DNA of 53,166 nucleotides from Methanoregula sp. (GTDB lineage Archaea; Halobacteriota; Methanomicrobia; Methanomicrobiales; Methanospirillaceae): contig PLLR01000074.1 of assembly GCA_003141335.1 (NCBI GenBank), positions 1 to 53,166 of the forward strand, written 5' to 3'. This document shows positions 10,237 to 52,201 of the stretch, in pieces (position 1 is the stretch's first letter; every line of letters begins with the position of its first letter). The notes beneath the pieces are model-generated. The model had not been told where the DNA came from. It did not search any database and was given only the letters and a program-made list of their open reading frames with translations. Position numbers and translations under genes: made by a program.

Positions 10237-11214
10237 TTATGTACTTCTGTTTGTTTGCCGGAGCATGCGGAGCACTGCTTCCCCGAACTCCCGGGTCCCC
10301 GCTGAACCACCAAGATCCCGGGTTTTAATCCCGACTGCGAGCACCTCCTGTACCGCCGCCTCAATACGTTCCGATCCCCGGGCATCGCCACAATAGGCAA
10401 GGAGCAGCCCCGCACTCCGCAGGGCAGCGATCGGGTTTGCAATGTTCCGCCCGGCAATATCCGGGGCACTCCCGTGCACCGGCTCAAAAAGGGCATAGCG
10501 GTCACCGATGTTGGCACTCGGCACCAGTCCCAGTCCTCCGACAAGATACGAAGCCACGTCCGAAAGGATATCCCCGAAGATGTTGGTCGTGACAACAACA
10601 TCATACGAGGCGGGATGCTGGAGGATATCCAGCGCAAGAGCGTCGATGAACTTGTCATTACAGGAGATCCCCACAGCTTTCGCTTCGGCAAGGCAGATGT
10701 CACGGAACAATACATCGGACTTGAGCACGTTTGCCTTATGCCCGATGGTCAGCCTGCCGTTCCGCTGGTGTGCAAGCCGGATTGCAGAACGGACGATCCG
10801 TTCGGTACCCATCCGGGTCACCACCCGGAGTGTGGTTGCCCGGTCAGCGCCAATCTCCTCAATTCCGGAATAGAGCCCCTCGGTATTTTCCCGCACGATC
10901 ATAATGTCGAACCCGTCACCTTTGACCGGCCGCAGGTTCGCGTAGAGATCGAGCGCTTTTCTCAGCCGCAGCACCACGCTCTGGTAATCCTTCATGGGGG
11001 GAGTCGTAATTGCTCCGAACAGGATCGCATCTGCGGTCTTCAGTTCGGCAATATCGCGATCTGCACACGGGCATCCGGTCTGTTCCCAGCGGTGGTATCC
11101 GACATCAACCGGGAAGTATTCGTACTCGGGATGGAGCAGTTCGAGAACGTTTTGTGCAACCGGGATCACCTCATGACCGATCCCGTCCCCTTCAACAATT
11201 GCAATCCGGGTCAT
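10237..11214 (-). CDS. aksF: Isocitrate/isopropylmalate dehydrogenase family, likely (homo)n-isocitrate dehydrogenase of coenzyme B synthesis or LeuB
   Basis: MTRIAIVEGDGIGHEVIPVA...NIFGDILSDVAS...FEPVHGSAPDIAGRNIANPIAAL; operon with AksA/D/E homologs. Confidence 0.75.
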   Translation of the reverse strand: MTRIAIVEGDGIGHEVIPVAQNVLELLHPEYEYFPVDVGYHRWEQTGCPCADRDIAELKTADAILFGAITTPPMKDYQSVVLRLRKALDLYANLRPVKGDGFDIMIVRENTEGLYSGIEEIGADRATTLRVVTRMGTERIVRSAIRLAHQRNGRLTIGHKANVLKSDVLFRDICLAEAKAVGISCNDKFIDALALDILQHPASYDVVVTTNIFGDILSDVASYLVGGLGLVPSANIGDRYALFEPVHGSAPDIAGRNIANPIAALRSAGLLLAYCGDARGSERIEAAVQEVLAVGIKTRDLGGSAGTREFGEAVLRMLRQTNRST

Positions 11215-12011
11215 TTCGCCCTCCACTGCACCACCAGTTCATTCACCACACGGGCGATCTGCACCGGGCTTGCACCCCAGTGAACCACGGCACCGCACTT
11301 CCCCTTGTATATGCCGATGCCTTCACGTTCGGAGCGGCAGCAGCGGGCAATGAACGGCTCTTCCCGCACGGATTCCAGCGGGCAGATATTCTCCAGCACA
11401 AAGTCCTTCCCGTAGCACTCGGTGTAGAACTGTGAGCCCGTCAGGCAGCCGGCCACCCGTTCACCTCCCTGCATGGGGTCGGCATCAAGCGTGCGGGTAT
11501 ACCCTGCAGCACGGCAGGGGTAGACATCGGCCTGCACCTGCGTGATGTCACGGGTGTGGTGGCAGAACGTGACCGAAAGATCGCCAAAGAGCCCGGCGGA
11601 CTCCAGCTCCCGGATACATGCCGAGAGACTCGGGCGGGGAGGAGTTACATCATAGACATGGATCTTGAGCAGCCCGGACATATCGGGATCGAGCACGAAC
11701 GTCATATGTTCGTCCAGCCCGGTAAAGATCGTGCAGTGGTATCCCGTATCGAGTGCAAGCCCGATAAGTCGCGTGCGGTCATGGATCTGCACCTTCTCTG
11801 GGTAGCGGTAGGTTTCCCCGCTCGTTGCGATCACCTTTGATGCTATGATGGTGCGCATCATGCCGCTCCCTGCCGGGTCCGGAGTAACCTCAAGAAGTTC
11901 GTAACCTTCGCCCGTGTCCCGCACAAGAAAACGGCTCAGGAAATATACCTTATCACCGCAGGGCTTTGTTGAAGCATACCCGACAAGCTTGCACTGTTCA
12001 GGAAAGATCAT
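11211..12011 (-). CDS. Uncharacterised Cys-rich protein in coenzyme B cluster
   Basis: 266 aa ORF overlapping aksE and aksF by 4 nt each; no family confidently recognised. Confidence 0.7.
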   Translation of the reverse strand: MIFPEQCKLVGYASTKPCGDKVYFLSRFLVRDTGEGYELLEVTPDPAGSGMMRTIIASKVIATSGETYRYPEKVQIHDRTRLIGLALDTGYHCTIFTGLDEHMTFVLDPDMSGLLKIHVYDVTPPRPSLSACIRELESAGLFGDLSVTFCHHTRDITQVQADVYPCRAAGYTRTLDADPMQGGERVAGCLTGSQFYTECYGKDFVLENICPLESVREEPFIARCCRSEREGIGIYKGKCGAVVHWGASPVQIARVVNELVVQWRAK

Positions 12012-12478
12012 CCGTGGGTCCTCCAGTAGTTGACAAGACCGCCAGCTGCAAGGATCTCCTGCATCTTAGGCGAGAGCGGGCGGGTAACAGACTTCTTACC
12101 CCCTGCCTCAACCCATCCTTCTGCAAGATCAAATGAGACCCCCGTTCCTTCCCTGCAGGTAAGGTCGCATTCGATGAGCGGGAGCCCGACATTGATCGCA
12201 TTCCGGAAAAATATCCGTGCAAAGGATGGCGCCACCACCGCAACCACCCCGGCCTCCCGTATGGCGATCGCTGCCTGTTCCCGGGATGACCCGCAGCCGA
12301 AATTTTTTCCTGCCACGATCACGGCACCGTTCATCCGGCTGGCAAGTGACGGATCGAGATCTTCGAACACGTGCGCAACCCAGATACTGTGGTCCTTTGT
12401 CCGCAGGTAGCGCCCGGCAATCACAAGATCCGTGTCAATATCCGCACCAACGCAGACTGCACGCCCTTTACCCTGCAT
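12008..12478 (-). CDS. aksE: Homoaconitase/isopropylmalate isomerase small subunit
   Basis: MQGKGRAVCVGADIDTDLVIAGRYL...GKNFGCGSSREQAAIAI. Confidence 0.8.
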   Translation of the reverse strand: MQGKGRAVCVGADIDTDLVIAGRYLRTKDHSIWVAHVFEDLDPSLASRMNGAVIVAGKNFGCGSSREQAAIAIREAGVVAVVAPSFARIFFRNAINVGLPLIECDLTCREGTGVSFDLAEGWVEAGGKKSVTRPLSPKMQEILAAGGLVNYWRTHG

Positions 12479-13689
12479 CAGGACACCCCGGGCACGGATA
12501 TTTCCCCTTCAAGTGCACTGGCTGCCGCAGTTGCAACTGAGGACAGGTAAATCTCCCCGCCTACACCCATCCGGTTTTTAAAGTTCCGGTTTGCTGTTGA
12601 CAGGCAGACCTCCCCTTCCCCCAGTACTCCCATATGAGCTCCAAGGCAGGGACCACAGCCGGGGGTCCCAAGGGTACATCCAGCCTCCACAATGTCAGTA
12701 AGCACCCCGGTCCGGATCGCTTCCTGCAGCACGGCGAGGGAGGCAGGAACAACGATGGTACGGATTGCAACTTTTTTGCCTTTCACGATCCGTGCAAACC
12801 GTGCGAGATCGGCATAGCGCCCGTTCGTGCAGGTGCCCACGAATACCTGGTCAAGAGGCAGCCCGGCGAGGTCATGCACGGGTTTTATCGTGTCCACCCG
12901 GGGAGGCACGGCAATGACCGGAACAATATCCGGAAGATCGAAATCGAGCTCCTGAATATACCGGCACGGTTCCGGTTCCTGCGGTTTCACCGCGTGCCCT
13001 GCCGTTTTAAGATACTGCACGGTTACGTCATCTGCATAGAACATCCCCGCCTTTGCCCCGGTCTCCACGGCAAGGTTGCAGAGCGTGAGCCGGTCGTCCA
13101 TAGGAAGTGCAGCAGTGCCTTCACCAATAAATTCCAGCGCCCGGTAGGTAGCACCGTCCATACCGAGCCTGCTGACGTACGTGAGTGCGAGGTCCTTTGC
13201 CTCCGCTGCACCCGTGAGGGCGCCTGACAGGTGAATGCCGATCGATTCCGGGACCCGGAACCAGGTCTCCCCGGTCATCCAGATCGCCGCCATATCGGTC
13301 GCTCCGACACCCGTGGCAAACGCACCGAATGCCCCGGGCGTGCAGCTGTGGGAATCAGCGCCAACCACAACCTCACCGGGAAGCACCACCCCCTCGCTCA
13401 TGATCTGGTGACAGATACCGCCACCGATATCGGAGAAGTGCAGGAATGAACTGCGGGCGAACTCCCGCAGCTCATGCTGGAGCGTCGCAGTCGTGCTGTT
13501 GTTGGCCGGGACGATGTGATCGAAGAGAACATGGAGATGTGCCGCATCCTGTATCCTCTTTGCACCCATGCTCTTCCAGGCTTCGAGCGTAAGCACCCCG
13601 GTCCCGTCATGGACATAGGCATGGTCGACAGCCCGGTCAACATACTCACCTGCTGACGCCCCGAGAATTCGTTCGGAGAGGGTTTCCAT
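12478..13689 (-). CDS. aksD: Homoaconitase/isopropylmalate isomerase large subunit
   Basis: METLSERILGASAGEYVDRAVDHAYVHDGTG...GADSHSCTPGAFGAFATGVGATD...VFVGTCTNGRYADL; start at 13689. Confidence 0.8.
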   Translation of the reverse strand: METLSERILGASAGEYVDRAVDHAYVHDGTGVLTLEAWKSMGAKRIQDAAHLHVLFDHIVPANNSTTATLQHELREFARSSFLHFSDIGGGICHQIMSEGVVLPGEVVVGADSHSCTPGAFGAFATGVGATDMAAIWMTGETWFRVPESIGIHLSGALTGAAEAKDLALTYVSRLGMDGATYRALEFIGEGTAALPMDDRLTLCNLAVETGAKAGMFYADDVTVQYLKTAGHAVKPQEPEPCRYIQELDFDLPDIVPVIAVPPRVDTIKPVHDLAGLPLDQVFVGTCTNGRYADLARFARIVKGKKVAIRTIVVPASLAVLQEAIRTGVLTDIVEAGCTLGTPGCGPCLGAHMGVLGEGEVCLSTANRNFKNRMGVGGEIYLSSVATAAASALEGEISVPGVS

Positions 13690-14816
13690 CAGGCTTTCTC
13701 CTCTTGTGCTTTCCGGATCAGTTTTTTCAAGACATCTGGGGTGATGTTGCATTTATGCTCTGAGTGATCCTTGACGAGGTCAAGGACCCGGCAGACCTGC
13801 TTGTCGGTAAGTTCGCAGCCGAGCGATGCCATGACATGTTCGAGTGCTTTCTTGCCCGTATGTTTCCCGAGGATGAATTTGCGTTCGCTCCCTACCATAT
13901 CGGGCGGGAAATATTCGTACGTGGCCGGGTCTTCCAGTATTGCCGCGATGTGGATACCACTCTCGTGCGAGAAGGCCAGTTCCCCGGTCACGGGTTTGTT
14001 CCGGGGGAGTGTGATCCCGGAATATTTCTCGACCATGTGCGAGAGCTCGGTCAGATGGGAAAGATTGTACCGGTCAATGCCCCCTTTCATCCGCAGGGCA
14101 ACAAGCACTTCTTCTAACGATGCATTGCCTGCCCGCTCCCCGATCCCGTTCACTGTCGTATGCAGCTGGAACGCCCCGGCCTCTGCGGCAGTGATTGTAT
14201 TTGCGACAGCACAACCCATATCGTTATGACAGTGAGCACAGAGCGGCTTGTCCACCGATGCGACCAGTTCGGTCATGATCCGCTGCATCTCGGTCGGGAT
14301 CAGGCAGCCAACGGTATCGGCAAAGCTCAGGAGCACTGCACCGTGCTCTGACGCACGACGGTACACCTCTTTTAAGAAGGGGAGATCAGTCCGGGACGCA
14401 TCCTCGGCTGCAAACCGCACCTGAACACCGTGATCCGTGGCAAAATCGATGATCCCAAGCGCATCCTCAAGCACCAGCTCCCTTGGTTTTTTGAATTTGA
14501 TCCGGACATGCAGCTCGGATGTCGGGATAAAAATGCTTACCATGTCCACACCGCAATCGATCGCCGTTGCAACATCCTGTTCCCGGGCCCGTGCAAACCC
14601 GCAGACACGGGCATCGAGCCCGAGGTTCGCAATGGTCTTTACGCACTGCTTCTCATTTTTGGATACTGCAGGAAACCCGGCCTCTATCACCTCAATGCCG
14701 ATGGTATCCAGCATCCTGGCAATCCCTACCTTTTCCTCACAGGAGAACGAGACACCCGGTGTCTGCTCCCCGTCTCTCAGCGTTACATCGCAGATCTCAA
14801 TATTCCACGGTTTCAT
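13689..14816 (-). CDS. aksA: Homocitrate synthase family protein (AksA-type)
   Basis: DVTLRDGEQTPGVSFSCEEKVGIARMLDTIGIEVIEAGFP; GKHTGKKAL; start at 14816. Confidence 0.83.
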   Translation of the reverse strand: MKPWNIEICDVTLRDGEQTPGVSFSCEEKVGIARMLDTIGIEVIEAGFPAVSKNEKQCVKTIANLGLDARVCGFARAREQDVATAIDCGVDMVSIFIPTSELHVRIKFKKPRELVLEDALGIIDFATDHGVQVRFAAEDASRTDLPFLKEVYRRASEHGAVLLSFADTVGCLIPTEMQRIMTELVASVDKPLCAHCHNDMGCAVANTITAAEAGAFQLHTTVNGIGERAGNASLEEVLVALRMKGGIDRYNLSHLTELSHMVEKYSGITLPRNKPVTGELAFSHESGIHIAAILEDPATYEYFPPDMVGSERKFILGKHTGKKALEHVMASLGCELTDKQVCRVLDLVKDHSEHKCNITPDVLKKLIRKAQEEKA

Positions 14817-16068
14817 GGCTGCTTCCTTCCGGACAGGTCCCTTCAATCACCAGCGTCCGTGGCCTGTCCGTGACCACGAGCTCTTTTTTCAGCGTCAGTT
14901 CATCATCGGCACGGCAGATAACCGGGTCCGCCCAGCGGATATAGGGAACAGGATCATAGGCCGGCTGTTTGCCGGTCATCGCCGTGCATATGTTATTCAT
15001 TACAATACACAGGAGCGGGAGCCGCTTCTCATAGACGTCGATGAGCGCGTTCAGACCGGAGTGCAGGAGGGCATAGTCACCAATGAGAGCGACTTTCGTA
15101 CTCCGTGCGGCAACCGCGATGCTCGCACCCATGCCATAACTTGCGACACCCAGTTCATAGGGCGGGGTCATGCCCAGCACCGAACACCCTGCATCGCAGA
15201 TCATCGCCATATTCCGTTCCTGCAGGATATTCATCAGGGGTTTGAACGGGCATGCGGTGCAGAATGTGCGGTAATAGCCCCGGTCCTCCATCGCCTGCGG
15301 GCGTTCCTGCGGCAGCGGTGGCTGGATACCGCGGTGGTCGCGGACAAAAGTCCTCCCATATTCATGGATCTCGTGTATCCCGGCTGCCTGCTCTGGCAGG
15401 GGATGCACGGTCACAATCCGTGAACTCCCCGCTGCCGCACCAACTCCGGCGGGCTCACCCTTCCACTGGTTCAGGGCTGACCGGTCTGACCAGGCAAACA
15501 TAGTGCGGTACAGTTCCTCTGCTGCAGTGACCCTGCCGTTCATGGTCCATGCCCGGTCGGAGAGCCTCCCTTTCCGGTCATTCCGGGGAACAGGATTACC
15601 GGATACCACCCCATCCAGGATCTGCGGTGTCAGACGGAGCATCGCCACACGGGAGAACTCCTCAGACGCTTCAAGCGCCGCCTCCACACCGGCATAACAG
15701 GTGGTTTCATCCGGTTCAATTACCGGTAGTTCCGCGAGCTCCCCGTAGTAGCGCGAGTCCTGGGCGGTCTGTGAACCCTTTGCTTCCGGGTCATCCCCGG
15801 TGACAAGGATTACCCCCCCGATGAGCCCCTGCGCTGTAGCCTGGAGCAGGGGATCGGCACACGCGTTCACGCCAACATTTTTGATGATCACCGCTGCCCT
15901 CCTGCCGGAGAGGGAATCCCCAAGTGCATATTCGAGTGCAGTCTTCTCATTGATCACCATCTCCGCTTTTGTCAGTTTCCCAAGTTCGGTGATCGGGAAC
16001 CCCGGAACGGTATACAGCCGGTCAGTATACCTGTTAAGGGCATCGGCTATAGCGTCGACCCCCTTCAT
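14797..16068 (-). CDS. Thiamine pyrophosphate enzyme, IorA-like but lacking a C-terminal ferredoxin domain
   Basis: VLVTGDDPEAKGSQTAQDSRYY; GMGASIAVAARSTKVALIGDYALLHSGLNALIDVYEKRLPLLCIVMNN (GD..NN ThDP motif). Confidence 0.82.
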   Translation of the reverse strand: MKGVDAIADALNRYTDRLYTVPGFPITELGKLTKAEMVINEKTALEYALGDSLSGRRAAVIIKNVGVNACADPLLQATAQGLIGGVILVTGDDPEAKGSQTAQDSRYYGELAELPVIEPDETTCYAGVEAALEASEEFSRVAMLRLTPQILDGVVSGNPVPRNDRKGRLSDRAWTMNGRVTAAEELYRTMFAWSDRSALNQWKGEPAGVGAAAGSSRIVTVHPLPEQAAGIHEIHEYGRTFVRDHRGIQPPLPQERPQAMEDRGYYRTFCTACPFKPLMNILQERNMAMICDAGCSVLGMTPPYELGVASYGMGASIAVAARSTKVALIGDYALLHSGLNALIDVYEKRLPLLCIVMNNICTAMTGKQPAYDPVPYIRWADPVICRADDELTLKKELVVTDRPRTLVIEGTCPEGSSHETVEY

Positions 16069-17033
16069 CCGTCCCTCCCTGGTACAAGATCACAGCCGGT
16101 ACAGTTTGTGCACATCGTTACTGCCAACCGTGGGTCAAGCCCTGCTGCTGCAAGTGCTCGTTCATGGATCGCAAAGATTTTCTTTAACCGTTCCGCAGAT
16201 GGGCGGGGTGTTCCTGCAAGATCGGCCACCGGGTTGAGCGGGCGCAGTACGGGAATCACCCCGAGAGAGGTGAGCTTTTTAATGCAGGTTTCCAGCTCCG
16301 CATCGGTCTCCCCCAGACCCACGATGACATTGGAAAAGACACGGTTTTTCCCGAACAGCTGCACCGAGCGATCAAGCACCTGCCAGAGCAGTCCGTAATT
16401 TAAGCCCGGGCACATCTTGGAAAAGAGTTCCGGGGTCGCCGCTTCGAGATTAAATTTCACCTCAGCAACACCGAGTTCCTTTAAGCGGTCGGGTGTCGTT
16501 GTTGTCGGGTAAATGGAGACACCGATGGGCAGGTTAAACGAGGTGAGGTGTTTTACCACCTCAAGCACATAGGACTCCTCTTCTTCAATACCTGAGAGGA
16601 CGCCGCTTGTTATGGAGATCGCATGGATACGGTGGCGTACCGATTCCACCATCCTTATGATCTCTTCGATGGTCTTGCGTTTTCCCCCGATGCGGGGGAC
16701 CGAGCAGTACCGGCATGCAAAAATGCAGCTGCCAGTTACCGTGATGTAGGCCTGGTCAGGGCAGTGGAACCCGGGTTCCAGCAGGTGCCCGGCGATAAGC
16801 TGGCCTTCAATGTAAAGGTCGGCAGTCCCGTTGCCACGGTGGGCGATCTCGATGCTGCTTACCGGGCTGATCGCAAGCTTGACCCGGTGGCTTCCCATAG
16901 CAAAAAAAACTGCACCACTGCCACCGGCACCCGGTCCTGCTGCAGAGCGGGCAATATACTGATCTGCTGGTTCACCGGTCAGTCGTACCGGGTTCGCAGC
17001 CAGCAGCCGGGCTTTCAGGTCTTTCCACTGCAT
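16065..17033 (-). CDS. Radical SAM protein with C-terminal Cys cluster
   Basis: CIFACRYC (CX3CX2C) plus C-terminal CTNCTGC. Confidence 0.85.
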   Translation of the reverse strand: MQWKDLKARLLAANPVRLTGEPADQYIARSAAGPGAGGSGAVFFAMGSHRVKLAISPVSSIEIAHRGNGTADLYIEGQLIAGHLLEPGFHCPDQAYITVTGSCIFACRYCSVPRIGGKRKTIEEIIRMVESVRHRIHAISITSGVLSGIEEEESYVLEVVKHLTSFNLPIGVSIYPTTTTPDRLKELGVAEVKFNLEAATPELFSKMCPGLNYGLLWQVLDRSVQLFGKNRVFSNVIVGLGETDAELETCIKKLTSLGVIPVLRPLNPVADLAGTPRPSAERLKKIFAIHERALAAAGLDPRLAVTMCTNCTGCDLVPGRDG

Positions 17034-17911
17034 AATTCTAACGCCTCCTTATAATTCGTGTAAAAGGGCAGAGCGGCGACAGCACCGACTATCCCCCTCC
17101 CTTTCATGATGATCGTAAGGTTTGGATCCTGCAGGGTATCCAGCAGGCCCGGGTCGATCTCACCCCGCTTCACCTTCCATCCGAATGCAAGCAACTCCCG
17201 GGATGGCGTAAAACCGGTATAGACCGCCATCCCGGTTTTCCGGGAGAGGGTATACTGTTCGAGAAGCTGCCGGAACCGGTCCGTGAGTCCCCGGGCATCC
17301 GTAGTTGCAAACTCCGCGACCAGGCTCACGCAGTTCTTTGTGCGGTACGGCACCGGGAAGAGCTGTACGATCGTGTGCGAAAGGTATACCGAATGTTCAT
17401 CCTCAACTGCCTTTGCAATATTATGGACAAGCGTCCAGGTTGCTCCCTCTTCGGGAGTATCTGTATCATCAACCCCGATAAGCACCCGTTGCCGCCGGGG
17501 CAGCCAGATGGTGGCACCGGCAACTTTTCCCCCGCCGGCAGGATCACTCCTGCTTCTCAGGACACCGTGCGCATCTGACCGGCATGCTGCGGCACCTACA
17601 CCCCCGCCCCCCATACCGATGTAGGTGACTGCAATCTCATATGTATCGACTACGCATGAGGAGATACCGGCTGGAAACCGGGATCCTTCAAGAGCAAGAT
17701 CCACGGTACCCGGAGTTAACAGGTACCGCATGGTCTGGCCGACACAGCGGACATTTTTTACAAGCGGGCTCTGTGCATAGTGGTGCTTTGACCACATTGC
17801 CCCGCCAACGCAGTCAACGAATTCAATGAGCTCCACATGGCTGCCTGTTGCATCAGCTATTGCAACAATCCGCGGGTAGTGGATGACATACGGTTCAGAG
17901 AGGTTCGCCAT
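17015..17911 (-). CDS. Methanogenesis marker protein 11-like, TiaS-like GVDDTDTPEEGATW motif
   Basis: VLIGVDDTDTPEEGATWTLVHNIAKAVE; likely start MANLSEPYVIHYPR at 17911. Confidence 0.7.
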   Translation of the reverse strand: MANLSEPYVIHYPRIVAIADATGSHVELIEFVDCVGGAMWSKHHYAQSPLVKNVRCVGQTMRYLLTPGTVDLALEGSRFPAGISSCVVDTYEIAVTYIGMGGGGVGAAACRSDAHGVLRSRSDPAGGGKVAGATIWLPRRQRVLIGVDDTDTPEEGATWTLVHNIAKAVEDEHSVYLSHTIVQLFPVPYRTKNCVSLVAEFATTDARGLTDRFRQLLEQYTLSRKTGMAVYTGFTPSRELLAFGWKVKRGEIDPGLLDTLQDPNLTIIMKGRGIVGAVAALPFYTNYKEALELCSGKT

Positions 17912-18122
17912 ACTGTCCTGCCACCTCCATTCCCTTGTTGCCCCGGAGTACCGCACCCCATGCACACCACCAGTTCATCGAGTCCCCTGCTATGGTGCTT
18001 CGGGAAGGGCATCGTCTGATGCTCTCTGCGATGCCAGCACATTCATCCACCATTACGAGAAAGTTCTCTGTAAAAAGCAGTCCGAATGGTAGATGCACGT
18101 CGTTGTATGTAGGGGTGATCAT
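17895..18122 (-). CDS. Small uncharacterised protein heading the coenzyme B cluster
   Basis: 75 aa MITPTYNDVHLPFGLLFTENFLVMVDECAGIAESIRRCPSRST...; overlaps next gene by 17 nt; plausible coding composition. Confidence 0.5.
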   Translation of the reverse strand: MITPTYNDVHLPFGLLFTENFLVMVDECAGIAESIRRCPSRSTIAGDSMNWWCAWGAVLRGNKGMEVAGQYGEPL

Positions 18123-18208: not shown

Positions 18209-19093
18209 TTAGAGAACTTTGTGCAGGTCAATCTTGAAAGGTCCAAGGGTACCGCCAAAGTTACCGGCAGAGATGAACTTCACACCCGGTACCATAACTG
18301 CAGCCCTGACACCGGCTGCCATTGCCGCTGCAACGGACTTTTCATCAATCCCGTCAATAACTATCTCATAGACTGCCTTGATCCCCGCCGGGATCTTTGA
18401 GTCAGGAACTTTTTCCCGGAGTGTCGGGCAGTACTTCTCGTTGGTCGAAGCGATCATGAACTTGTATTTTAAGCTGCCAACTTTTGAACCGCTCGCCACG
18501 ATACCGCCAGGGAAACTCGTAATGGTGCCCGGAACCTTGTCAATCGCATCAACTGCAGCCTTTGCACCCATGAGGGCTGCCATCTGGTTCTCGCCCATCA
18601 CAAAGAAGTTACCGCCGGCAACACCCTTCACGATACCAAACTCCTCTTCGCCAACGTATTCACCTTCCATAATGGGTATAACCCAGCACTTTCTCCCGCC
18701 GACTTCCTTTTGGTATTCGTAACCATCGCCAAAGAAGTGAAGCTTGACCGGGATCTTTTCCTCTGCATTGGTGATCCCATTAAAGACTGCTGTCGTAGGT
18801 GCGGTGAGAACACATTCTGCAAGGCGTTCGACAACCTGTTCTTTGAGTTTCTTCTTGCTTGCACAGATCAGGATGGCAACACCCGGTCTTCCATCGGGAG
18901 TCTCACTTGCCGGGACATACCCTTCAATACCTGCCTCACACGGGCAGCCGATTGATGATGTCGCAAAGCCGGTTGCTTCGGTTGCTGCTTTCTTAGCCCA
19001 TTCCTTCGTGACCGCAGTGATGATGACACGGCAGACCCAGGTCGGGAATGCCTCTGCGTACGTATTATCAATAGTAACTCCGTTGATTTCCAT
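18209..19093 (-). CDS. ftr: Formylmethanofuran:tetrahydromethanopterin formyltransferase
   Basis: [57 protein letters not shown]. Confidence 0.96.
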
Positions 19094-19362
19094 ACGATAA
19101 CCTCCGGTACTACAAAGGTACCATGATGTTGGTTGAATAAATTTTCTAATTTAATCCGGCTTCATGAAGCGCATAATAAACCACCAATTAAGTAAAAATT
19201 TTTTAGTTAACTTGTTTTAATTGTATAGTTACTTAAATTGAAAATCGTCAATAAATTGGCCTTTTTTTGAGGCAGATTTCAGAACATTTATCTATATTCT
19301 TCTACCATTTTTTGATAGTCGATTTTTAAAATCGATCATAATCATAGCTGGTGCGTGAAAAA

Positions 19363-19629
19363 ATGGCATTTGCAGTGCACATAAACATGGAAAATTGTAC
19401 CGGCTGTAACAATTGTGTCGTCGCGTGCCCTGTGGACGCATTGGAGCTTCACACTGTAGATCCTTCCTCAAAGGATAAGATCTACAAAGTCAAGGACGGA
19501 AAATCCGTTGTTCTTGACTTTAAGGGTGAACTTTGCGCCGGTTGTGGCGTTTGTGTCCAGGCATGCCCGCATGATGTTATCAAGCTGGCAGGGCCCTGGG
19601 AATCCAGAGCACAGGCAAAGGTACAATAA
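19363..19629 (+). CDS. fwdG: Formylmethanofuran dehydrogenase-associated ferredoxin, subunit G type
   Basis: Two CX2CX2CX3C motifs; start of fwd/hdr operon. Confidence 0.8.
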   Translation: MAFAVHINMENCTGCNNCVVACPVDALELHTVDPSSKDKIYKVKDGKSVVLDFKGELCAGCGVCVQACPHDVIKLAGPWESRAQAKVQ

Positions 19630-19652
19630 AGGAACAACGTGAGGGTTATTTC

Positions 19653-20825
19653 ATGGCATTGTTTCCAAAGTTTTCAAAAAAGAGGGAGGGTTTAAACGTT
19701 GTAATGGAGCAGCGCCTCCTTCAGAGCGTGAACAACCTTATTCTTAATGCAGAGACCTGCACAGGATGTGGTATATGTGTCGAGGCTTGTCCCGAAGAAG
19801 CAATCGTTCTCGGGCTCGTCGGTGCATCAAGTCGTGGCGCCATCAATTATGCCGCCCCGGTTGATGTTGACGAGGTCAAGTGCTCGTATTGCGGCGTCTG
19901 CGTCGTCATGTGCCCGTTCAATGCATTAACACTGAAGGTTGATGGACAGGAGAAACTTCCGATCCTTGAGAAGGAAGGGTTCCCGCAATATGATAAGAAG
20001 GCGGAGATTGATGACGAGAAATGCATCAAGTGCACGATCTGCGAAGAGGTCTGCCCACGGGATGCAATTGACCGGAACGTCCCTGCCTACGAAGGAACCT
20101 ACAAGGGACCGGTTACCGGAACAAAAGACCGCCAGACTGCGATCAAGACCAAGACGACATTCAAAGTTGATATGGAGAAATGCTCGCTCTGTGGTCTGTG
20201 TGGCGCACTCTGTCCGGCACTCGTTGTGAAACACAAGGAGTTCACCGCAGAGACAGGTAAAGTCGAAGGTGAAGTAATCTGGGACGAAACCAAATGTGAT
20301 GCATGCAAGGTGTGTGTCGAGGCATGTCCGGAAGAGTGCATCACCGTCGAGCGCGAGGTTATCAGCGATAAAATTGAGGGTAAGGTCAGCATTATCCTGG
20401 ACAATTGCTGCACCTGCCAGTGGTGTTCACGTAATTGCCCGCCCGAGGCAATAACGGTAGAAAAGATTTTTGAAGGAGACATCGAATTCCACGCCGAGAA
20501 ATGCCCCGGTGGTTGCTCAACGTGTGCAGATATCTGCCCGGCTAATGCGATCTATCTCCCCTCAGCTAAACCTGCAGCCGATATGAAAGGCGAGGTGGAG
20601 AAGAACATCGCGGTCAACAAGGATTACTGCATCCTGTGCGGCGCCTGTGTCAATGCATGTCCCGGTGAGGATATCATCGTGATGCAGCGAACCGGGGTCC
20701 GCATGAAGGGCACGGAGACAGACCTGTTCAAGAAGATAAAAGAGAAACTCTTCACCCGGAGAACTTCGAAGGTGAAAGAGGACATAACCGGACAGGTTAA
20801 CCTCAAAGTAATGGAGAAGGCGTGA
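19653..20825 (+). CDS. fwdF: Polyferredoxin, formylmethanofuran dehydrogenase subunit F type
   Basis: Eight 4Fe-4S motifs counted in 390 aa. Confidence 0.88.
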   Translation: MALFPKFSKKREGLNVVMEQRLLQSVNNLILNAETCTGCGICVEACPEEAIVLGLVGASSRGAINYAAPVDVDEVKCSYCGVCVVMCPFNALTLKVDGQEKLPILEKEGFPQYDKKAEIDDEKCIKCTICEEVCPRDAIDRNVPAYEGTYKGPVTGTKDRQTAIKTKTTFKVDMEKCSLCGLCGALCPALVVKHKEFTAETGKVEGEVIWDETKCDACKVCVEACPEECITVEREVISDKIEGKVSIILDNCCTCQWCSRNCPPEAITVEKIFEGDIEFHAEKCPGGCSTCADICPANAIYLPSAKPAADMKGEVEKNIAVNKDYCILCGACVNACPGEDIIVMQRTGVRMKGTETDLFKKIKEKLFTRRTSKVKEDITGQVNLKVMEKA

Positions 20826-20830
20826 TACTC

Positions 20831-21412
20831 ATGGCACGAACAAAAGGTTATCCGGAAGCACTGGAGAAGAAACTCAACGACCAAAGATACTACAGTGAGG
20901 ACTCAAACCCGGAATTCACGAAAAACGTGAAAGCAATCTCACGCACGATCGCCCACATGTGCTTCCAGTGCGGTACCTGCACCGGCTCCTGCCCGTCTGC
21001 TCCCCGCAGCAGCTACCGTATCAGGCTGTTCATGCGCAGGGCTGTGCTTGGGCTTGAGAACGAAGCATTAACCGACCCGGATCTCTGGCTCTGTACTACG
21101 TGTTATAGCTGTACTGACCGATGCCCCCGTGATATCGCACCAACAGATGTCATTATGGCAATGAGGAACCTCGCCTTCAAGAGAGATATTATACCGGTGA
21201 ACTTCCTCAAGACCGTTCAGGCTATTTATAAGACCGGCCATGGTGTGCCAAACAATGACGTGAACAGGGCAGCCCGTGAACGGCTCGGTCTGACCCGCGA
21301 CCCACCAACTACTCACATGTATCCGGAATATATTAAGGGTATCCAGACGATCCTGGACCACTACAAACTCAAGGCCAATGCCGACCGGATTGTCAAAGAG
21401 AGAGAGGGGTAA
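20831..21412 (+). CDS. hdrC: CoB-CoM heterodisulfide reductase subunit C
   Basis: CFQCGTCTGSCPSAPRSSYRIR; CTTCYSCTDRCPRDIAPTDVI. Confidence 0.93.
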   Translation: MARTKGYPEALEKKLNDQRYYSEDSNPEFTKNVKAISRTIAHMCFQCGTCTGSCPSAPRSSYRIRLFMRRAVLGLENEALTDPDLWLCTTCYSCTDRCPRDIAPTDVIMAMRNLAFKRDIIPVNFLKTVQAIYKTGHGVPNNDVNRAARERLGLTRDPPTTHMYPEYIKGIQTILDHYKLKANADRIVKEREG

Positions 21413-21418
21413 GATACC

Positions 21419-22336
21419 ATGTCAGAAGCAAAACACAAGTTCGCTTTCTATCTCGGATGCATTGCCCCGAACCGGTACCCGGGTTGTGAATCTGCATCCA
21501 TCAAGGCGATGAAGAAACTCGGCATTGAGCTGGTACCCCTCAAGGGTGCAAGCTGCTGCCCTGCCCCTGGTGCATTCGGTTCGATCGATCTCAACGTATT
21601 CTATGCAATGGCAGCCCGTAACCTCGTGCTTGCCGAGCAGATGAATATGGACATTGCACTGTTATGCAACGGCTGCTACAAGTCGATCTGGGAAGTCAAC
21701 CACAAGCTCAAGCACAATAAGGACCTCCGTGACGGGGTCAATGAAGTGCTCAAAGAGATCGGCATGGAGTACAAGGGCACCATCAATGTGTACCACACCG
21801 CTGAACTTCTCTACAATGACAAGTTCATCGGTGTCGAAAAAGTTCGCGCCAGCGTGACCAACCCGCTCACGGGTGCACGTATCGCTGTCCACTACGGCTG
21901 TCACCTGACCAAACCCCACAAAGACCGGGAGTTTGAAAAAGAGGTCATGCTGAACACCGATCACCCGGTCTGGATGGAAGAACTGGTCGCAGCTCTTGGT
22001 GCAACACCGGTCGAATACCGCAACAAGATGCAATGCTGCGGTGCCGGTGGCGGTGTCCGTGGATACGATATTGTCCACTCGCTGGACATCACCAATGAGA
22101 AGCTGATCAACCTCAAAGAAGTAGGCGTTGACGCTCTCACGGATATCTGCCCGTTCTGTCAGCTCCAGTTTGACCGCGGCCAGATTGAGATTAAGGAGAA
22201 GTTTGGCGTGTCATACGATTTACCCGTACTGCACTATGCCGAACTGCTCGGACTGGCACAGGGAATGAGTCCGCAGGAACTCGGGCTGGATCTGCATGCG
22301 ATCAGCTGCGAACCGTTCCTGCAGAAGGTGCTGTGA
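21419..22336 (+). CDS. hdrB: CoB-CoM heterodisulfide reductase subunit B
   Basis: FAFYLGCIAPNRYPGCESA; CCG motifs (KMQCCGAGGGVRG). Confidence 0.95.
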   Translation: MSEAKHKFAFYLGCIAPNRYPGCESASIKAMKKLGIELVPLKGASCCPAPGAFGSIDLNVFYAMAARNLVLAEQMNMDIALLCNGCYKSIWEVNHKLKHNKDLRDGVNEVLKEIGMEYKGTINVYHTAELLYNDKFIGVEKVRASVTNPLTGARIAVHYGCHLTKPHKDREFEKEVMLNTDHPVWMEELVAALGATPVEYRNKMQCCGAGGGVRGYDIVHSLDITNEKLINLKEVGVDALTDICPFCQLQFDRGQIEIKEKFGVSYDLPVLHYAELLGLAQGMSPQELGLDLHAISCEPFLQKVL

Positions 22337-22346
22337 GGTGGGAATA

Positions 22347-24479
22347 ATGGCCGAAAAGAAGAAAACAACTACCAAAAAGACTGAGACCAGGAAACAGGAA
22401 GCCCCCGCAAAACAGGATGTCAAAAAGCAGGTACCCGCAGCCAAGGGTGCAGCAGCACCAGTGAAGACAGGCCCCTCTGAGAAACCGCGTATCGGTGTCT
22501 TCATCTGTCACTGCGGTACAAACATCGCCGGCTCTATTGATATCAAAGAAGTTGAAGCCTACGCAAAGACTATCCCGAACGTGGCCCATGTGGACAACTA
22601 CCAGTATATCTGTTCCACACCAGGTCAGAATAAAATCATCACTGCAATCAAGGAACACAAGCTTACCGGAACGGTCGTTGCTGCGTGTTCCCCGCGTCTT
22701 CACGAACCGACCTTCAGGAGAGCAACCAAGGTAGGTGGCTTAAACCAGTTCCGGTTCGAGATGGCAAACATCCGCGAACAGAATGCGTGGGTGCATATGC
22801 ACGACCCCGAGGGGGCAACTTCAAAGGCAAAGGATACCATCAGGATTGCCGTGGCTAAAGCGGCATTATTACAGGATCTCACCCCGAAGACCGTACCCGT
22901 CGAGAGAGCCGCGATGGTCGTCGGCGCGGGTATTGCCGGCATGCAGGCAGCCCTTGACCTTGCAAACGCAGGCATCAAGACGTACCTCATCGAATCAATG
23001 CCAAGCATCGGCGGCAGGATGTCCCAGCTCGACAAGACATTCCCGACCCTTGACTGCTCGCAGTGTATCTTAACACCAAAGATGGTGGATGTGGGCAGGG
23101 CCGAGAATATCGAGCTGATGACCTACTCAGAAGTTGATGCAGTCGAAGGCTACATCGGCAACTTCGATGTGACCATCCGCAAGAAGGCACGCGGTGTCCT
23201 CTCCATGGCGGAGGCTGAAGCGAAGGGTATTTCCGGTGGCGGCTGTAACGGCTGCGGTGACTGTGAAGCACCATGCCCGGTTATCAAACCCAACGAGTTC
23301 GAAGTGGGCATGAAGCCCAGGAAGGCAATCTACATCAACCACCCGCAGGTTGTCCCGCTTCTCTACACGATCGATTTTGACTCCTGCATAAAATGCGGGC
23401 TGTGTGTGACCGCATGCGGTGAAAAGAAAGCAATTGATCTTGAAGCGAAGGACGAGTTTGTCAAGGTCAAAGTCGGAACAGCAATTCTCGCAACGGGATT
23501 CGACATGTTCCCCGTGGAGAAGAAAACAGAATGGGGATACAAGAAGTTTGAGAATGTCATCACGAGCCTCGAATTCGAGCGCCTCATCTGTGCGTCGGGT
23601 CCGACCGGCGGTTACCCTATCCGCCCGAGCGATGGAGAGAGACCGAAGACGGTCGCGTTCGTGCTCTGTGCCGGCTCCCGGGATAATACCGGCAACGGCA
23701 AACCGTACTGTTCACGGTTCTGCTGCATGTATTCCTTGAAACACGCACACCAGATCATCGAAAAGATCCCCGGTTGCACTCCCATCATCTTCTATATGGA
23801 TATCCGGTCATTCGGTAAGATGTACGAAGAATTCTACTACCGTATCCAGGATGAAGGCGCGAAGTTCATCCGCGGACGTGTGGCAAACATCCTCGAAGAC
23901 CCGAAGACCAAGAACCTCCATGTCTTTGCCGATGACACGCTGCTTAACCGCCCGGTCGATATGGAAGTCGACCTTGTCGTGCTTGCAGCAGCAGTGCAGC
24001 CCATGGAAGACACAGAAAGGACCCGGAAACTATTCGGTGTTTCCTGTACTGGCGACGGCTGGCTCCAGGAAGCCCACCCGAAGCTGAACCCCTGTGGAAC
24101 GACAACTGCCGGTGTCTTCCTTGCCGGTGTCTGCCAGGGACCAAAAGATATCCCCGACACGGTAGCATCAGCAGAAGGAGCAGCATCGGCAGCCAGTATC
24201 CCCATCCACATGGGTGAGGTGGAACTTGAGCCGTACTTTGCCACGTGTATTGAAGAGCGATGTGCAGGCTGCGGCATGTGCGTTAATCTCTGTCCCTTCA
24301 CTGCCCTTGCACTTGTTGAGAAGGATGGTCGTACGGTCATGGAGGTCACTGAGGCAAAGTGTAAAGGCTGCGGTACCTGCGGTGGTTTCTGCCCCGGTGG
24401 AGCAATATGGATGAACCACTTTGCTACCCCGCAGATCGTGGCGCAGATCGATGCATTCCTGCTCGGAGGTGAGCAGTAA
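22347..24479 (+). CDS. hdrA: CoB-CoM heterodisulfide reductase subunit A
   Basis: PRIGVFICHCGTNIAGSIDI; flavin motif GAGIAGMQAALDLANAG; multiple FeS motifs; start at MAEKKKTTTKK. Confidence 0.95.
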   Translation: MAEKKKTTTKKTETRKQEAPAKQDVKKQVPAAKGAAAPVKTGPSEKPRIGVFICHCGTNIAGSIDIKEVEAYAKTIPNVAHVDNYQYICSTPGQNKIITAIKEHKLTGTVVAACSPRLHEPTFRRATKVGGLNQFRFEMANIREQNAWVHMHDPEGATSKAKDTIRIAVAKAALLQDLTPKTVPVERAAMVVGAGIAGMQAALDLANAGIKTYLIESMPSIGGRMSQLDKTFPTLDCSQCILTPKMVDVGRAENIELMTYSEVDAVEGYIGNFDVTIRKKARGVLSMAEAEAKGISGGGCNGCGDCEAPCPVIKPNEFEVGMKPRKAIYINHPQVVPLLYTIDFDSCIKCGLCVTACGEKKAIDLEAKDEFVKVKVGTAILATGFDMFPVEKKTEWGYKKFENVITSLEFERLICASGPTGGYPIRPSDGERPKTVAFVLCAGSRDNTGNGKPYCSRFCCMYSLKHAHQIIEKIPGCTPIIFYMDIRSFGKMYEEFYYRIQDEGAKFIRGRVANILEDPKTKNLHVFADDTLLNRPVDMEVDLVVLAAAVQPMEDTERTRKLFGVSCTGDGWLQEAHPKLNPCGTTTAGVFLAGVCQGPKDIPDTVASAEGAASAASIPIHMGEVELEPYFATCIEERCAGCGMCVNLCPFTALALVEKDGRTVMEVTEAKCKGCGTCGGFCPGGAIWMNHFATPQIVAQIDAFLLGGEQ

Positions 24480-24938
24480 ATGTCAGCACCACCTGAATTC
24501 CCTATACCCAAACGCGAGCCAGGAGTCTGGCAACCCAAAATACTCGGTATTCTCTGTAACTGGTGCTCGTATGCCGGTGCAGACCTTGCCGGTGGTGGCC
24601 GTATCCAGTACCCGCCAGATGTCCGGGTTATCCGTGTGATGTGTACCGGACGTATTGACGCATTGTTCGTGCTCAAGGCCTTTGCTGATGGCGCAGATGG
24701 TGTGCTGGTCTCCGGTTGCCACTTCGGTGACTGCCACTACCTTGCAGGCAACTTCAAGGGTGCAAAGCGCATGTTCATGGTCAAGCGACTCATGAAGAGT
24801 ATCGGTCTGGATGACCGCCGCTTCAGGATGACCTTCGTGTCAGCATCCGAGGGTACAAAGTGGGGTGCAGTCATCACCGATGTAGTTAAAACAATCAACG
24901 AGCTCGGACCAAGCCCCATCAAGGAGTTCAATAAATAA
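24480..24938 (+). CDS. mvhD: F420-nonreducing hydrogenase iron-sulfur subunit D (MvhD)
   Basis: ILGILCNWCSYAGADLAGGGR...RVMCTGRID...SGCHFGDCHY. Confidence 0.93.
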   Translation: MSAPPEFPIPKREPGVWQPKILGILCNWCSYAGADLAGGGRIQYPPDVRVIRVMCTGRIDALFVLKAFADGADGVLVSGCHFGDCHYLAGNFKGAKRMFMVKRLMKSIGLDDRRFRMTFVSASEGTKWGAVITDVVKTINELGPSPIKEFNK

Positions 24939-24952
24939 AGGAGGACCAGAGC

Positions 24953-25096
24953 GTGGAAATGCTATCCCCCCATCCATTTTTCCTGCAGGTGCACCCGTGC
25001 AGCTGTCGCGATAATGGAGTTAATGTAAGCGAGACGGGATACATAGTTTCACGGATTAATTCAATTATTGGAGGAATATGTCGTGGCAACTATTAA
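24953..25096 (+). CDS. Possible 47-aa ORF between mvhD and fwdD
   Basis: GTG start after AGGAGG; VEMLSPHPFFLQVHPCSCRDNGVNVSETGYIVSRINSIIGGICRGNY; overlaps fwdD start. Confidence 0.3.
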   Translation: MEMLSPHPFFLQVHPCSCRDNGVNVSETGYIVSRINSIIGGICRGNY

Positions 25097-25481
25097 CGTG
25101 AACCTGATATCAGGTCGGAGCATCCAGCAGGGTGTTGCGATCGAAGGAGGGAAAGAAAAACCCGCCTATCGCACTGCTGCCGGCATCATCGAACTTGATC
25201 CATCAGATTTTAAAAAACTTGGGGCATGGAAAAACACCAATGTCAGGGTGACGAGCGATCACGGCAGCGTTGTTGTGAAAGCAATCGAGACCACCCAGGG
25301 CCCTCACCCTGGCCTCGCGTTCATCCCCATGGGACCCTGGGCGAATTCCATAATCGACCCCAATACCTACTCAACAGGGATGCCGACATTCAAAGGCGTA
25401 CCGGTGAAAGTAGACGTAGCGATCAATGAACCTATACTGCTTGGTATAGAACTGGTGCAGAAACTATGTGGGGTAAAATGA
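25083..25481 (+). CDS. fwdD: Formylmethanofuran dehydrogenase subunit D
   Basis: Molybdopterin dinucleotide-binding domain; GTG start after GGAGG. Confidence 0.88.
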   Translation: MATINVNLISGRSIQQGVAIEGGKEKPAYRTAAGIIELDPSDFKKLGAWKNTNVRVTSDHGSVVVKAIETTQGPHPGLAFIPMGPWANSIIDPNTYSTGMPTFKGVPVKVDVAINEPILLGIELVQKLCGVK

Positions 25482-25482
25482 A

Positions 25483-26799
25483 ATGACCAAGACCGTAACA
25501 GATGTAATTTGTCCTTTCTGCGGGACGCTCTGCGACGACCTGGAAGTTGTTGTTTCTGATGACGGAAAACAGCTTCTCGAGGTCTACAACGCCTGCGTCA
25601 TCGGAACTGAAAAGTTCTTACACTCCCAGTCAAAGGATCGTGTTACCCGGCCAAGGATGCACCAGCCTGACGGGACATGGAAAGAGATCAGCTATGATGA
25701 GGCAGCCGAATATACTGCCCAGATGCTGGCAAAGGCGAAAAAGCCCCTCATGTTCGGCTGGAGCTCCACCAACTGCGAAGCGCAAAGCGTTGGTAACGAA
25801 ATTGCCGAAATAACCCGGGCATGCTGTGACAATACCGCAGCAACCTGCCATGGCACCTCACTGATCGCAATACAGGATATCGGTCTCCCGTCATGTACAC
25901 TCGGGGAAATCAAGAACCGTGCAGATCGTGTCATCTTCTGGGGCTGCAACCCGGCACACGCTCATCCCCGGCACATGTCCCGGTACTCGATCTTCCCCCG
26001 CGGGTTCTTCACCGGCAAGGGACAGATGAGCCGCAAGCTGATTGTTGTTGACCCCCGTGTCACTGACACGGCGAAAATGGCCGACGTCCACCTGCAGGTA
26101 GAACAGGGTAAGGACTATGAACTGTTCGATGCACTCCGCGTGGCATTCAAAGGCGAATGGCTCCCCGATTTCGTTGCAGGCATCCCAAAGGAAAAGATCC
26201 GGGAAGTCGCAGATATGATGAAGAGCGGCCGTTTCGGGATCATCTTCTTCGGTATGGGTGTCACCCAGTCGCTTGGCAAGAACCACAACATCGATGCAGC
26301 AATCGCCGTCACAAAGGACCTCAACGAGTATACGAAATTCTCGATCATGCCGATGCGCGGCCACTACAATGTGACCGGCTCCGGTGAAGTGTTTGGATGG
26401 CAGTTCGGGTTTCCCTATGCAGTCGATCTCACCAGAGGGTTTGCACGCTATAACCCCGGCGACACCAGCACCATTGACCTGCTGGTACGCGGTGAAGTGG
26501 ATGCAATGTTCACCATAGGAAGCGACCCGGGTGCACATTTCCCCATAAGTGCCGTCAAGCAATTCGCACATATACCATCTGTTTGCATAGATCCTCACCT
26601 TACACCCACAAGCGGTGTGTCAAAACTGCATGTCCCGGTGGCATTCAACGGCGTGGAATGCGGTGGAAACTGCTATCGTATGGATAATGTGCCGATTGAT
26701 TGCCGTAAGGTTGTGGAACCACCAGAGGGCATGCTCACCGATGAGCAGTTCCTCATTAAAGTCCGCGACCGTGTAAAACAGCTCAAGGGGGCGGCGTAA
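25483..26799 (+). CDS. fwdB: Formylmethanofuran dehydrogenase subunit B
   Basis: VICPFCGTLCDDLEVVV; ATCHGTSL; molybdopterin oxidoreductase family. Confidence 0.94.
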   Translation: MTKTVTDVICPFCGTLCDDLEVVVSDDGKQLLEVYNACVIGTEKFLHSQSKDRVTRPRMHQPDGTWKEISYDEAAEYTAQMLAKAKKPLMFGWSSTNCEAQSVGNEIAEITRACCDNTAATCHGTSLIAIQDIGLPSCTLGEIKNRADRVIFWGCNPAHAHPRHMSRYSIFPRGFFTGKGQMSRKLIVVDPRVTDTAKMADVHLQVEQGKDYELFDALRVAFKGEWLPDFVAGIPKEKIREVADMMKSGRFGIIFFGMGVTQSLGKNHNIDAAIAVTKDLNEYTKFSIMPMRGHYNVTGSGEVFGWQFGFPYAVDLTRGFARYNPGDTSTIDLLVRGEVDAMFTIGSDPGAHFPISAVKQFAHIPSVCIDPHLTPTSGVSKLHVPVAFNGVECGGNCYRMDNVPIDCRKVVEPPEGMLTDEQFLIKVRDRVKQLKGAA

Positions 26800-26801
26800 T
26801 C

Positions 26802-28508: not shown

Positions 28509-28523
28509 GTGCAGGTGTGGACG

Positions 28524-29324
28524 ATGGAAACTGTAACTATCACCATGAAAAATCCGCCTGCACTGTATCTTGAGGCGGACAATGTATCGCCCGATGCATT
28601 TGCAGGAAAAACTGCAGCGCAGATCGCTGAGCTTCATGTTCACGAAGGAAATGTAACCTCCACTCTTGGCAAGTATTTCGATGTGAGTGGCAATGCAGGT
28701 GCAACCGCGGTCGACACGAAGATTATTGTGAAAGGCGATGTGAAGAAGGTCAAGTATCTCGGCTTTAAAATGAGCGCCGGAGAACTTGTTGTTGAAGGCA
28801 GCACAGACCTGTATGCGGGTGCCTGGATGACCGGGGGCAAGATGCTGGTCAAAGGAAATGCCGAAGGATTTGCTGCGACCGCCATGAAAGGCGGCGAGCT
28901 TGTCATCGAAGGCAATGCCGGCAACTACCTCGGTGCAGCATACCGGGGCGACTGGCGCGGAATGAGCGGCGGTAAGATCCTCGTGAAAGGAAATGCCGGC
29001 AGCGATATCGGCATGTATATGCTCGGTGGAGAGATCATCGTCAACGGCAACGTTGATGTCCATGTCTGTACCCATGCCGAAGGCGGAAAAGTCATTATCA
29101 AAGGAAACGCCAAGAGCAAAGTCGGCGGCCAGATGGTCGACGGCACTATCTACGTCTTTGGCTCCATCGACACCATGATGCCCGGCTTCAAACCCGCAGG
29201 TGAGATAGAGCTCGAAGTCGACGGTGTTAAAGCAAAATTTGCCCACTACATCGGTGACATGGGCGAGCGCCACAAGAAGAAGAAAGGACAGATCGTGTAC
29301 GCTAACCTGTACAAGAAGATCTGA
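28524..29324 (+). CDS. fwdC: Formylmethanofuran dehydrogenase subunit C
   Basis: GXXGXXX beta-helix repeats (GGKMLVKGNAEGFAATAMKGGELVIEGNAG). Confidence 0.94.
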   Translation: METVTITMKNPPALYLEADNVSPDAFAGKTAAQIAELHVHEGNVTSTLGKYFDVSGNAGATAVDTKIIVKGDVKKVKYLGFKMSAGELVVEGSTDLYAGAWMTGGKMLVKGNAEGFAATAMKGGELVIEGNAGNYLGAAYRGDWRGMSGGKILVKGNAGSDIGMYMLGGEIIVNGNVDVHVCTHAEGGKVIIKGNAKSKVGGQMVDGTIYVFGSIDTMMPGFKPAGEIELEVDGVKAKFAHYIGDMGERHKKKKGQIVYANLYKKI

Positions 29325-29603
29325 TCCCCTTTTTGAAGAAAAAACGCACTGCAAATCATTTGAGGAGCGTCCGGTGCAATCTGCACCCGGGCAATTCCTC
29401 AACCCCACATTTTTTATACAGAGCGCACACAAAAATATAAAAATTTACTATTTTCTATAGCAACATGTAATACCTTTTTTTATTTTTGTAATACTGCGTA
29501 AAACAATGAAACGTAATTAATATGATATATTTGAACATTCCTTCATTTTGAATTATTATTTTTTGTTTATTATAAAAACTGTTCTCTGAAAAAGATAGTA
29601 ACA

Positions 29604-31062: not shown

Positions 31063-31080
31063 ACCCCCCAGCAGATACGA

Positions 31081-31551: not shown

Positions 31552-31554
31552 ATT

Positions 31555-32190: not shown

Positions 32191-32197
32191 TAAAATA

Positions 32198-32965: not shown

Positions 32966-32967
32966 AC

Positions 32968-51047: not shown

Positions 51048-51057
51048 GGTGTTGAAG

Positions 51058-52200: not shown

Positions 52201-52201
52201 T

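Follow-up and report, generated by a model that had tools for sequence, protein, structure and literature searches.

Methane formation requires the cofactor coenzyme B (CoB), on which methyl-coenzyme M reductase (MCR) depends, and the elongation of 2-oxoglutarate to 2-oxosuberate by AksA, AksD/E and AksF on the way to CoB is an established pathway. Which proteins act after 2-oxosuberate is the question raised by a gene cluster at positions 10237-18122 of a contig from Methanoregula sp. (PLLR01000074.1), all 53,166 nucleotides of which were analyzed and are referred to here as the window. Nine minus-strand open reading frames (ORFs) overlap head to tail in this cluster, and both the ORF table of the window and the family matches agreed with the coordinates and gene calls of a first-pass annotation of the contig. 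In the open-access literature that we searched, we found no enzyme assignment for the late CoB steps, DUF7714, 7-oxoheptanoate, or marker 11.

The best overall explanation, which we consider probable, is that the locus is a CoB biosynthesis operon that includes candidates for the late steps. AksA, AksD/E and AksF would extend 2-oxoglutarate to 2-oxosuberate, and a thiamine pyrophosphate (TPP)-dependent enzyme would decarboxylate 2-oxosuberate to 7-oxoheptanoate. A radical S-adenosylmethionine (SAM) protein and methanogenesis marker protein 11 (marker 11) would act as a unit after the decarboxylation, with marker 11 performing an ATP-dependent amide coupling to threonine, or a phosphorylation. 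The reductive thiol-forming step would fall to a protein of Pfam family PF24830 (DUF7714), a homologue of bacterial XcbA. The locus thus narrows the steps after 2-oxosuberate to four named proteins, each with a specific, testable role. To our knowledge, no organisms other than MCR-bearing archaea make CoB, and efforts to control methane could therefore take an interest in its synthesis.

Conservation and natural loss of the operon

Read from 18122 to 10237, the gene order is small ORF, marker 11, radical SAM protein, TPP enzyme, AksA, AksD, AksE, DUF7714, and AksF (Table 1). Overlaps in the ORF table are 71 bp (marker 11/small ORF), 19 bp (radical SAM/marker 11), 4 bp (TPP/radical SAM), 50 bp (AksA/TPP), 64 bp (AksD/AksA, or ~1 bp if an internal Met is the AksD start), 1 bp (AksE/AksD), 4 bp (DUF7714/AksE), and 16 bp (AksF/DUF7714).

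Table 1. The nine overlapping genes of the cluster, with window coordinates and principal matches.
Feature	Position	Strand	Evidence
AksF, homoisocitrate dehydrogenase homologue	10237..11226	-	PF00180 E 2.6e-88; TIGR02088 E 1.4e-112
PF24830 (DUF7714) protein, candidate thiol-forming enzyme, homologue of bacterial XcbA	11211..12011	-	PF24830 E 4.2e-88
AksE, homoaconitase small subunit, YLRT loop	12008..12478	-	TIGR02087 E 2e-48; 2PKP E 1.8e-35
AksD, homoaconitase large subunit	12478..13752	-	TIGR02086 E 9.6e-142, above cut-off
AksA, homocitrate-type synthase	13689..14846	-	PF00682 E 7e-83; PF22617; 6KTQ E 7.5e-86
TPP-dependent enzyme, candidate 2-oxosuberate decarboxylase	14797..16068	-	PF02775 E 4.2e-9; TIGR03336 E 1.3e-45, far below cut-off
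Radical SAM protein	16065..17033	-	PF04055 E 4.9e-17; LipS2 E 6e-19, below cut-off
Methanogenesis marker protein 11	17015..17965	-	TIGR03280 326 bits vs cut-off 255.8; PF22641 E 1.3e-11
Remnant of second marker-11 paralogue (mm11b)	17895..18122	-	tblastn of sister genome's 338-aa mm11b

We compared 80 named Methanomicrobiales loci, judging the order wherever the contig reached far enough. Nearly all of them kept the order Ftr, (mm11b), marker 11, radical SAM protein, TPP enzyme, AksA, AksD, AksE, DUF7714, AksF, in which mm11b is a second marker-11 paralogue. This order is conserved far beyond chance. Parts of the cluster persist in four further archaeal families: marker 11, (radical SAM protein), TPP enzyme, AksA on the opposite strand, AksD, AksE, AksF, and DUF7714 in family f14; the same set from (radical SAM protein) onward, again with AksA on the opposite strand, in f7; and two separate pieces, AksE-DUF7714-AksF and marker 11-TPP enzyme, in f8 and f22. 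As the first-pass annotation had proposed, we profiled the genes against MCR: DUF7714 occurred as a single copy in 60 of 148 genomes of the phylum, 58 of which had McrA, the other two being metagenome-assembled genomes (MAGs) that are 70% and 61% complete. Marker 11 scored above its cut-off in 59 of these 60 genomes. DUF7714 was also present in Methanosarcina acetivorans, which served as a control genome.

Natural knock-out lineages already sort the four candidates into blocks. In an AksE search over 150 genomes of the order, genus g13 (family f3) and genus g11 (family f6) were split into AksE-positive and AksE-negative members, and 30 genomes were tested. In state A, every gene of the set was present. 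In state B (G136, G171, G225, G237, G249, G253, and G270), AksE and the TPP enzyme were absent, while the radical SAM protein, marker 11, and DUF7714 were present. In state C, found in G217, G221, G229, G241, G264, and G267 and separately in G210, G214, and G250, the radical SAM protein and marker 11 were absent as well, and DUF7714 and mm11b were present. Two genomes, G245 and G261 (76% and 70% complete), had none of the tested genes. The radical SAM protein and marker 11 were lost together in two lineages, with at least two independent state C events. The locus of G210, when read directly, ran Ftr-mm11b-DUF7714 with the middle block cleanly gone; in loci read in this way the block is cleanly missing, which rules out gaps in the assembly as the cause in these cases. 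The same boundary appeared as a physical split in G193, with mm11b, marker 11, the radical SAM protein, and DUF7714 at one site and the TPP enzyme and aks genes at another.

According to published records, Methanomicrobium mobile needs CoB, isovalerate, and further acids for growth (PMC10658910). The g11 lineage comprising G210, G214, and G250 was without any LeuD/AksE homologue and, since this agrees with the recorded need for both CoB and isovalerate, is probably Methanomicrobium mobile-like. Homocitrate synthase and homoaconitase are reported to be enriched in environmental versus host-associated Methanocorpusculum (PMC10035134), and genus g13 fits a Methanocorpusculum-like identity.

Several observations weigh against an operon devoted to CoB. 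M. jannaschii has MCR and no DUF7714, so if DUF7714 makes the CoB thiol, other methanogens need a different enzyme. The MCR-bearing families f10, f12, f18, and f24 had neither DUF7714 nor marker 11 above cut-off. DUF7714 was retained, with its five cysteines, where AksE, the TPP enzyme, the radical SAM protein, and marker 11 had been lost. Finally, MCR-negative Archaeoglobaceae without a YLRT-type homoaconitase carry marker 11 and a radical SAM gene from a different subfamily. The first-pass annotation had named wide occurrence in non-methanogens without CoB as a refuting condition, so this last point counts against its inference, although in two of these genomes marker 11 lies beside CoM-type (coenzyme M) genes.

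The TPP enzyme, the radical SAM protein, and marker 11

All the co-located unknowns had initially been put forward as late-step candidates. Their distribution does follow that of MCR and the aks genes, and the TPP enzyme, radical SAM protein, and marker 11 were lost with aks in putative CoB auxotrophs; the proposal points the right way, but the candidates are of unequal standing. The best-supported assignment among them is that of the TPP enzyme, which was present in 12 of 12 AksE-positive and 0 of 18 AksE-negative genomes (agreement 30/30, p 1e-8, a value that, like our other loss p-values, ignores shared ancestry, the genomes not being independent). Because its presence and absence follow AksE exactly, it is a candidate for the decarboxylation of 2-oxosuberate to 7-oxoheptanoate, an assignment that we regard as likely. 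An analogous 2-oxoacid decarboxylation is carried out in CoM synthesis by ComDE, the sulfopyruvate decarboxylase; a family-model search of the TPP enzyme gave no match to a ComDE model. The protein has 423 residues with fused PYR and PP domains of the IorA type. It is too short for the Fe-S domain of IorA, which has ~595 residues, and is distinct from the longer IorA-like protein of the host genome. Against the IorA equivalog it scored 155.9 bits, where the cut-off is 650.9, and its solved relatives were superfamily-level matches only.

The radical SAM protein carries a CX3CX2C motif and a C-terminal CTNCTGC and is related to the LipS2 and MSMEG_0568 families. Its score against the LipS2 equivalog was 68.5 bits (cut-off 270), and among solved structures we found superfamily-level matches only. 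Marker 11, which had been called marker 11-like, is a true member of TIGR03280 (326.3 versus 255.8 bits). It contains TCKD (a TiaS-type ATP-using kinase) and FLD domains (PF22641, and PF08489 with E 3e-6), and its predicted fold matches that of TiaS, the tRNA(Ile2) agmatinylcytidine synthetase (3AMT), with probability 1.00. However, marker 11 is ~100 residues shorter than TiaS, the match is confined to its C-terminal half, and the full-length TiaS model NF040849 gave 11.6 bits against a cut-off of 600.

The presence of the radical SAM protein agreed with that of marker 11 in 29 of the 30 genomes; the one mismatch came from a MAG of 73% completeness. Because both are dispensable where CoB is probably imported, late CoB steps are the likely place for them; we judge it somewhat better than an even prospect that the two form one functional unit that acts in CoB synthesis after the decarboxylation of 2-oxosuberate. 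Given its TiaS-type kinase fold, to which ATP-dependent amide formation or phosphorylation would be suited, marker 11 is the likelier ATP-dependent enzyme of the pair, and its predicted reaction is the amide coupling to threonine or a phosphorylation.

It is unlikely that marker 11 and the radical SAM protein instead serve another cofactor, or the modification of MCR or RNA, and cluster with aks incidentally. Such a role would account for the persistence of marker 11 and a radical SAM neighbor in the Archaeoglobaceae described above and for the fold that marker 11 has in common with the RNA-modifying TiaS. However, the pair was lost in two methanogen lineages, one of them with a sister state that keeps it, and is therefore not needed for methanogenesis as such. 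Furthermore, the archaeoglobal radical SAM protein belongs to a different subfamily, and in two of these genomes the pair adjoins cysteate synthase-like and sulfopyruvate decarboxylase-like genes, which is a thiol-cofactor setting. In these organisms the pair may serve a related, CoM-like thiol cofactor in the absence of MCR.

Marker 11 and its paralogues were seen in further settings. One MCR-negative Archaeoglobaceae locus (L143, 8396-14244; L136 is alike) holds a row of marker 11, MSMEG_0568-type radical SAM, cysteate synthase-like, fused ComDE-like, and SsuA-like genes. The marker 11 gene of G020 immediately precedes the mcr operon on its upstream side (L138, 7990-13996). A third, more distant marker-11 paralogue of ~370-420 residues occurs in Methanomicrobiales and family f14 (e.g., G056:C1:1380394-1381215), and a paralogue at L152 9465-10583, in a genome with several McrA copies, has what appears by eye to be an N-terminal helix-turn-helix.

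DUF7714 and bacterial XcbA

The DUF7714 protein of the window matched PF24830 over residues 1-263 (295.6 bits, gathering score 25), and this was its sole Pfam match. All 19 archaeal members tested matched the NCBIfam XcbA family (best E 1.7e-25). Against the XcbA subfamily NF052538 the window protein scored 48.7 bits (E 5.9e-13, cut-off 150); as judged from these scores, it is a relative of XcbA and not a member of that subfamily. Bacterial XcbA proteins, in turn, are full PF24830 members (E 1e-75 to 1e-93). A tblastn search of 72,556 plasmids with the window protein gave meaningful matches in Methylocystis, Mycolicibacterium, Xanthobacter Py2, and Nocardioides, and all of these relatives sit in CoM-synthesis operons, adjoining phosphosulfolactate synthase and lyases. 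Cysteines C166, C189, C210, C224, and C225 were invariant in 8 aligned sequences from archaea and bacteria. The V.WG motif was likewise invariant across aligned archaeal and bacterial members, which also have a PP.P motif in common. By sequence, then, the "Cys-rich unknown" of the first-pass annotation and the bacterial CoM enzyme XcbA are one family, a link that is new here and that ties a Pfam family of unknown function to bacterial CoM synthesis.

XcbA is said to catalyze the last, reductive step of bacterial CoM synthesis, and we take the XcbA of Xanthobacter autotrophicus Py2 to be Xaut_5051. In contrast to its bacterial relatives, to which it is 23-28% identical, the window gene is not in a CoM operon; in the archaeal operons seen, DUF7714 lies among the aks genes, and every complete operon seen, whether in Methanomicrobiales or in the four other families, has it next to AksE or AksF. 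Based on homology and gene position, DUF7714 most likely performs a reductive thiol-forming step like that of its bacterial relative. The bacterial CoM pathway of Py2 has been worked out in full, according to PMC12068725. MMP16/ComF and L-ASST (COG1900) catalyze an analogous aldehyde-to-thiol conversion (PMC12068725), whereas DUF7714 belongs to a different family. The Protein Data Bank held no relative of DUF7714 by sequence, and by fold the best E was 0.06 with no credible TM-score; thus, despite a good model (predicted local distance difference test score 87.6), structure gives no help with the mechanism.

In the tree of DUF7714, the two state C lineages are separate and stand on long branches (1.11 and 0.5), and the protein keeps all five cysteines in both. 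Such fast evolution with the cysteines kept suggests a changed role. Because DUF7714 was kept where the other genes were lost, it could act on something imported, serve CoM, or both, and a role solely in de novo CoB synthesis is doubtful. For this protein, the original proposal of a late CoB step needs revision, given the retention of the gene in genomes of these orders from which aks, marker 11, and the radical SAM gene have gone. Loci L156-L162 and L172 are those in which DUF7714 was seen to evolve much faster where the rest of the operon was lost, with the five cysteines kept.

One alternative, to which we give a minority chance, is that DUF7714 and mm11b handle imported CoB or its breakdown products besides acting in de novo synthesis, for example by reducing a disulfide or thioaldehyde form. 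These are the two genes retained after loss of the operon, adjoining in most such genomes, and long branches with conserved cysteines are what a protein that stays active in an altered role should show. However, many complete genomes have no mm11b, and the window has only a broken copy, so it is not generally needed. Less probable still is that DUF7714 is an archaeal CoM synthase or a backup for MMP16, sharing the operon since MCR needs both thiol cofactors. Membership in the Pfam family of XcbA would favor this, as would the retention of DUF7714 in putative CoB auxotrophs, given that CoM is not among the listed requirements of M. mobile; moreover, M. acetivorans, a carrier of DUF7714, has a backup for MMP16 (PMC12068725). 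On the other hand, it was L-ASST that was credited with the compensation reported for MMP16 (PMC12068725), and DUF7714, which neighbors AksE or AksF in complete operons, lay beside CoM genes in no archaeal locus examined.

Returning to DUF7714 as the thiol-forming enzyme of a CoB operon, its substrate could be 7-oxoheptanoate only or, just as conceivably, a compound also handled in CoB salvage; a CoM intermediate seems improbable. More tentatively, archaeal DUF7714 and bacterial XcbA might together be a single family of thiol-forming enzymes, serving CoB in archaea and CoM in bacteria, with the TPP enzyme, radical SAM protein, marker 11, and DUF7714 as the complete late CoB set of Methanomicrobiales, Methanosarcinales, and relatives.

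The aks genes, the small ORF, and the surrounding locus

The sequences of the aks genes support a CoB-type set rather than a leucine set, as had been claimed initially. The best solved match of AksE was 2PKP, a homoaconitase small subunit, and the YLRT loops align, whereas the isopropylmalate/citramalate isomerase 3VBA has YLVYT at this position. In the M. jannaschii enzyme (MJ1271), the YLRT loop reportedly sets substrate specificity. Of the ~100 AksE ORFs that we scored in the retrieved loci, a single one had no YLR[T/S] loop; the paralogues of Archaeoglobaceae lacked this loop. It is because AksE carries this homoaconitase loop that we read the set as CoB-type; a second, LeuD-like small subunit is encoded elsewhere in the host genome, as would be expected for the leucine pathway. 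AksA had the homocitrate synthase 6KTQ as its best solved match and reached no equivalog cut-off. AksE scored 158 and 139 bits against the NCBIfam HacB equivalog models (cut-off 230 for both), cut-offs that may derive from other orders, and only looser subfamily membership is claimed for it. That the aks genes in fact serve leucine or lysine synthesis in a cluster unrelated to CoB, as the scores of AksF and homoaconitase under the NCBIfam methanogen equivalog cut-offs might suggest, is very improbable and already largely refuted by the AksA match together with the YLRT loop and the separate LeuD-like subunit, the last two of which rule out leucine genes.

Compared with AksA/D/E/F of M. jannaschii, the window proteins belong to the same families, with the same YLRT loop and the same expected chemistry up to 2-oxosuberate. 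They differ in that all four share one operon with four uncharacterized enzymes and in that, lying below the NCBIfam equivalog cut-offs, they are diverged relatives.

The small ORF had been counted among the candidate enzymes. It had no match in a family-model search, and tblastn aligned it in a single frame with residues 7-78 (E 9e-22) and 317-338 of the 338-aa mm11b of a sister genome. The N-terminal ~72 and C-terminal 22 residues of mm11b are thus fused in frame, with ~240 residues missing, and from this alignment the ORF is an in-frame deletion remnant of mm11b; as a functional gene it is ruled out. Loci L037, L043, and L044 contain comparable short remnants, and other Methanoregula keep either the full mm11b or short stubs, so that mm11b appears to be decaying repeatedly within the genus.

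Genes for Ftr, ferredoxins, Hdr, Fwd, Mcr, and Mtr, named by sequence reading alone except for Ftr and McrA, flank the CoB operon at 18209-34653 and 49321-52924 of the window and form with it a methanogenesis super-locus. McrA lies ~15 kb from the operon, in a host genome of 2.0 Mb.

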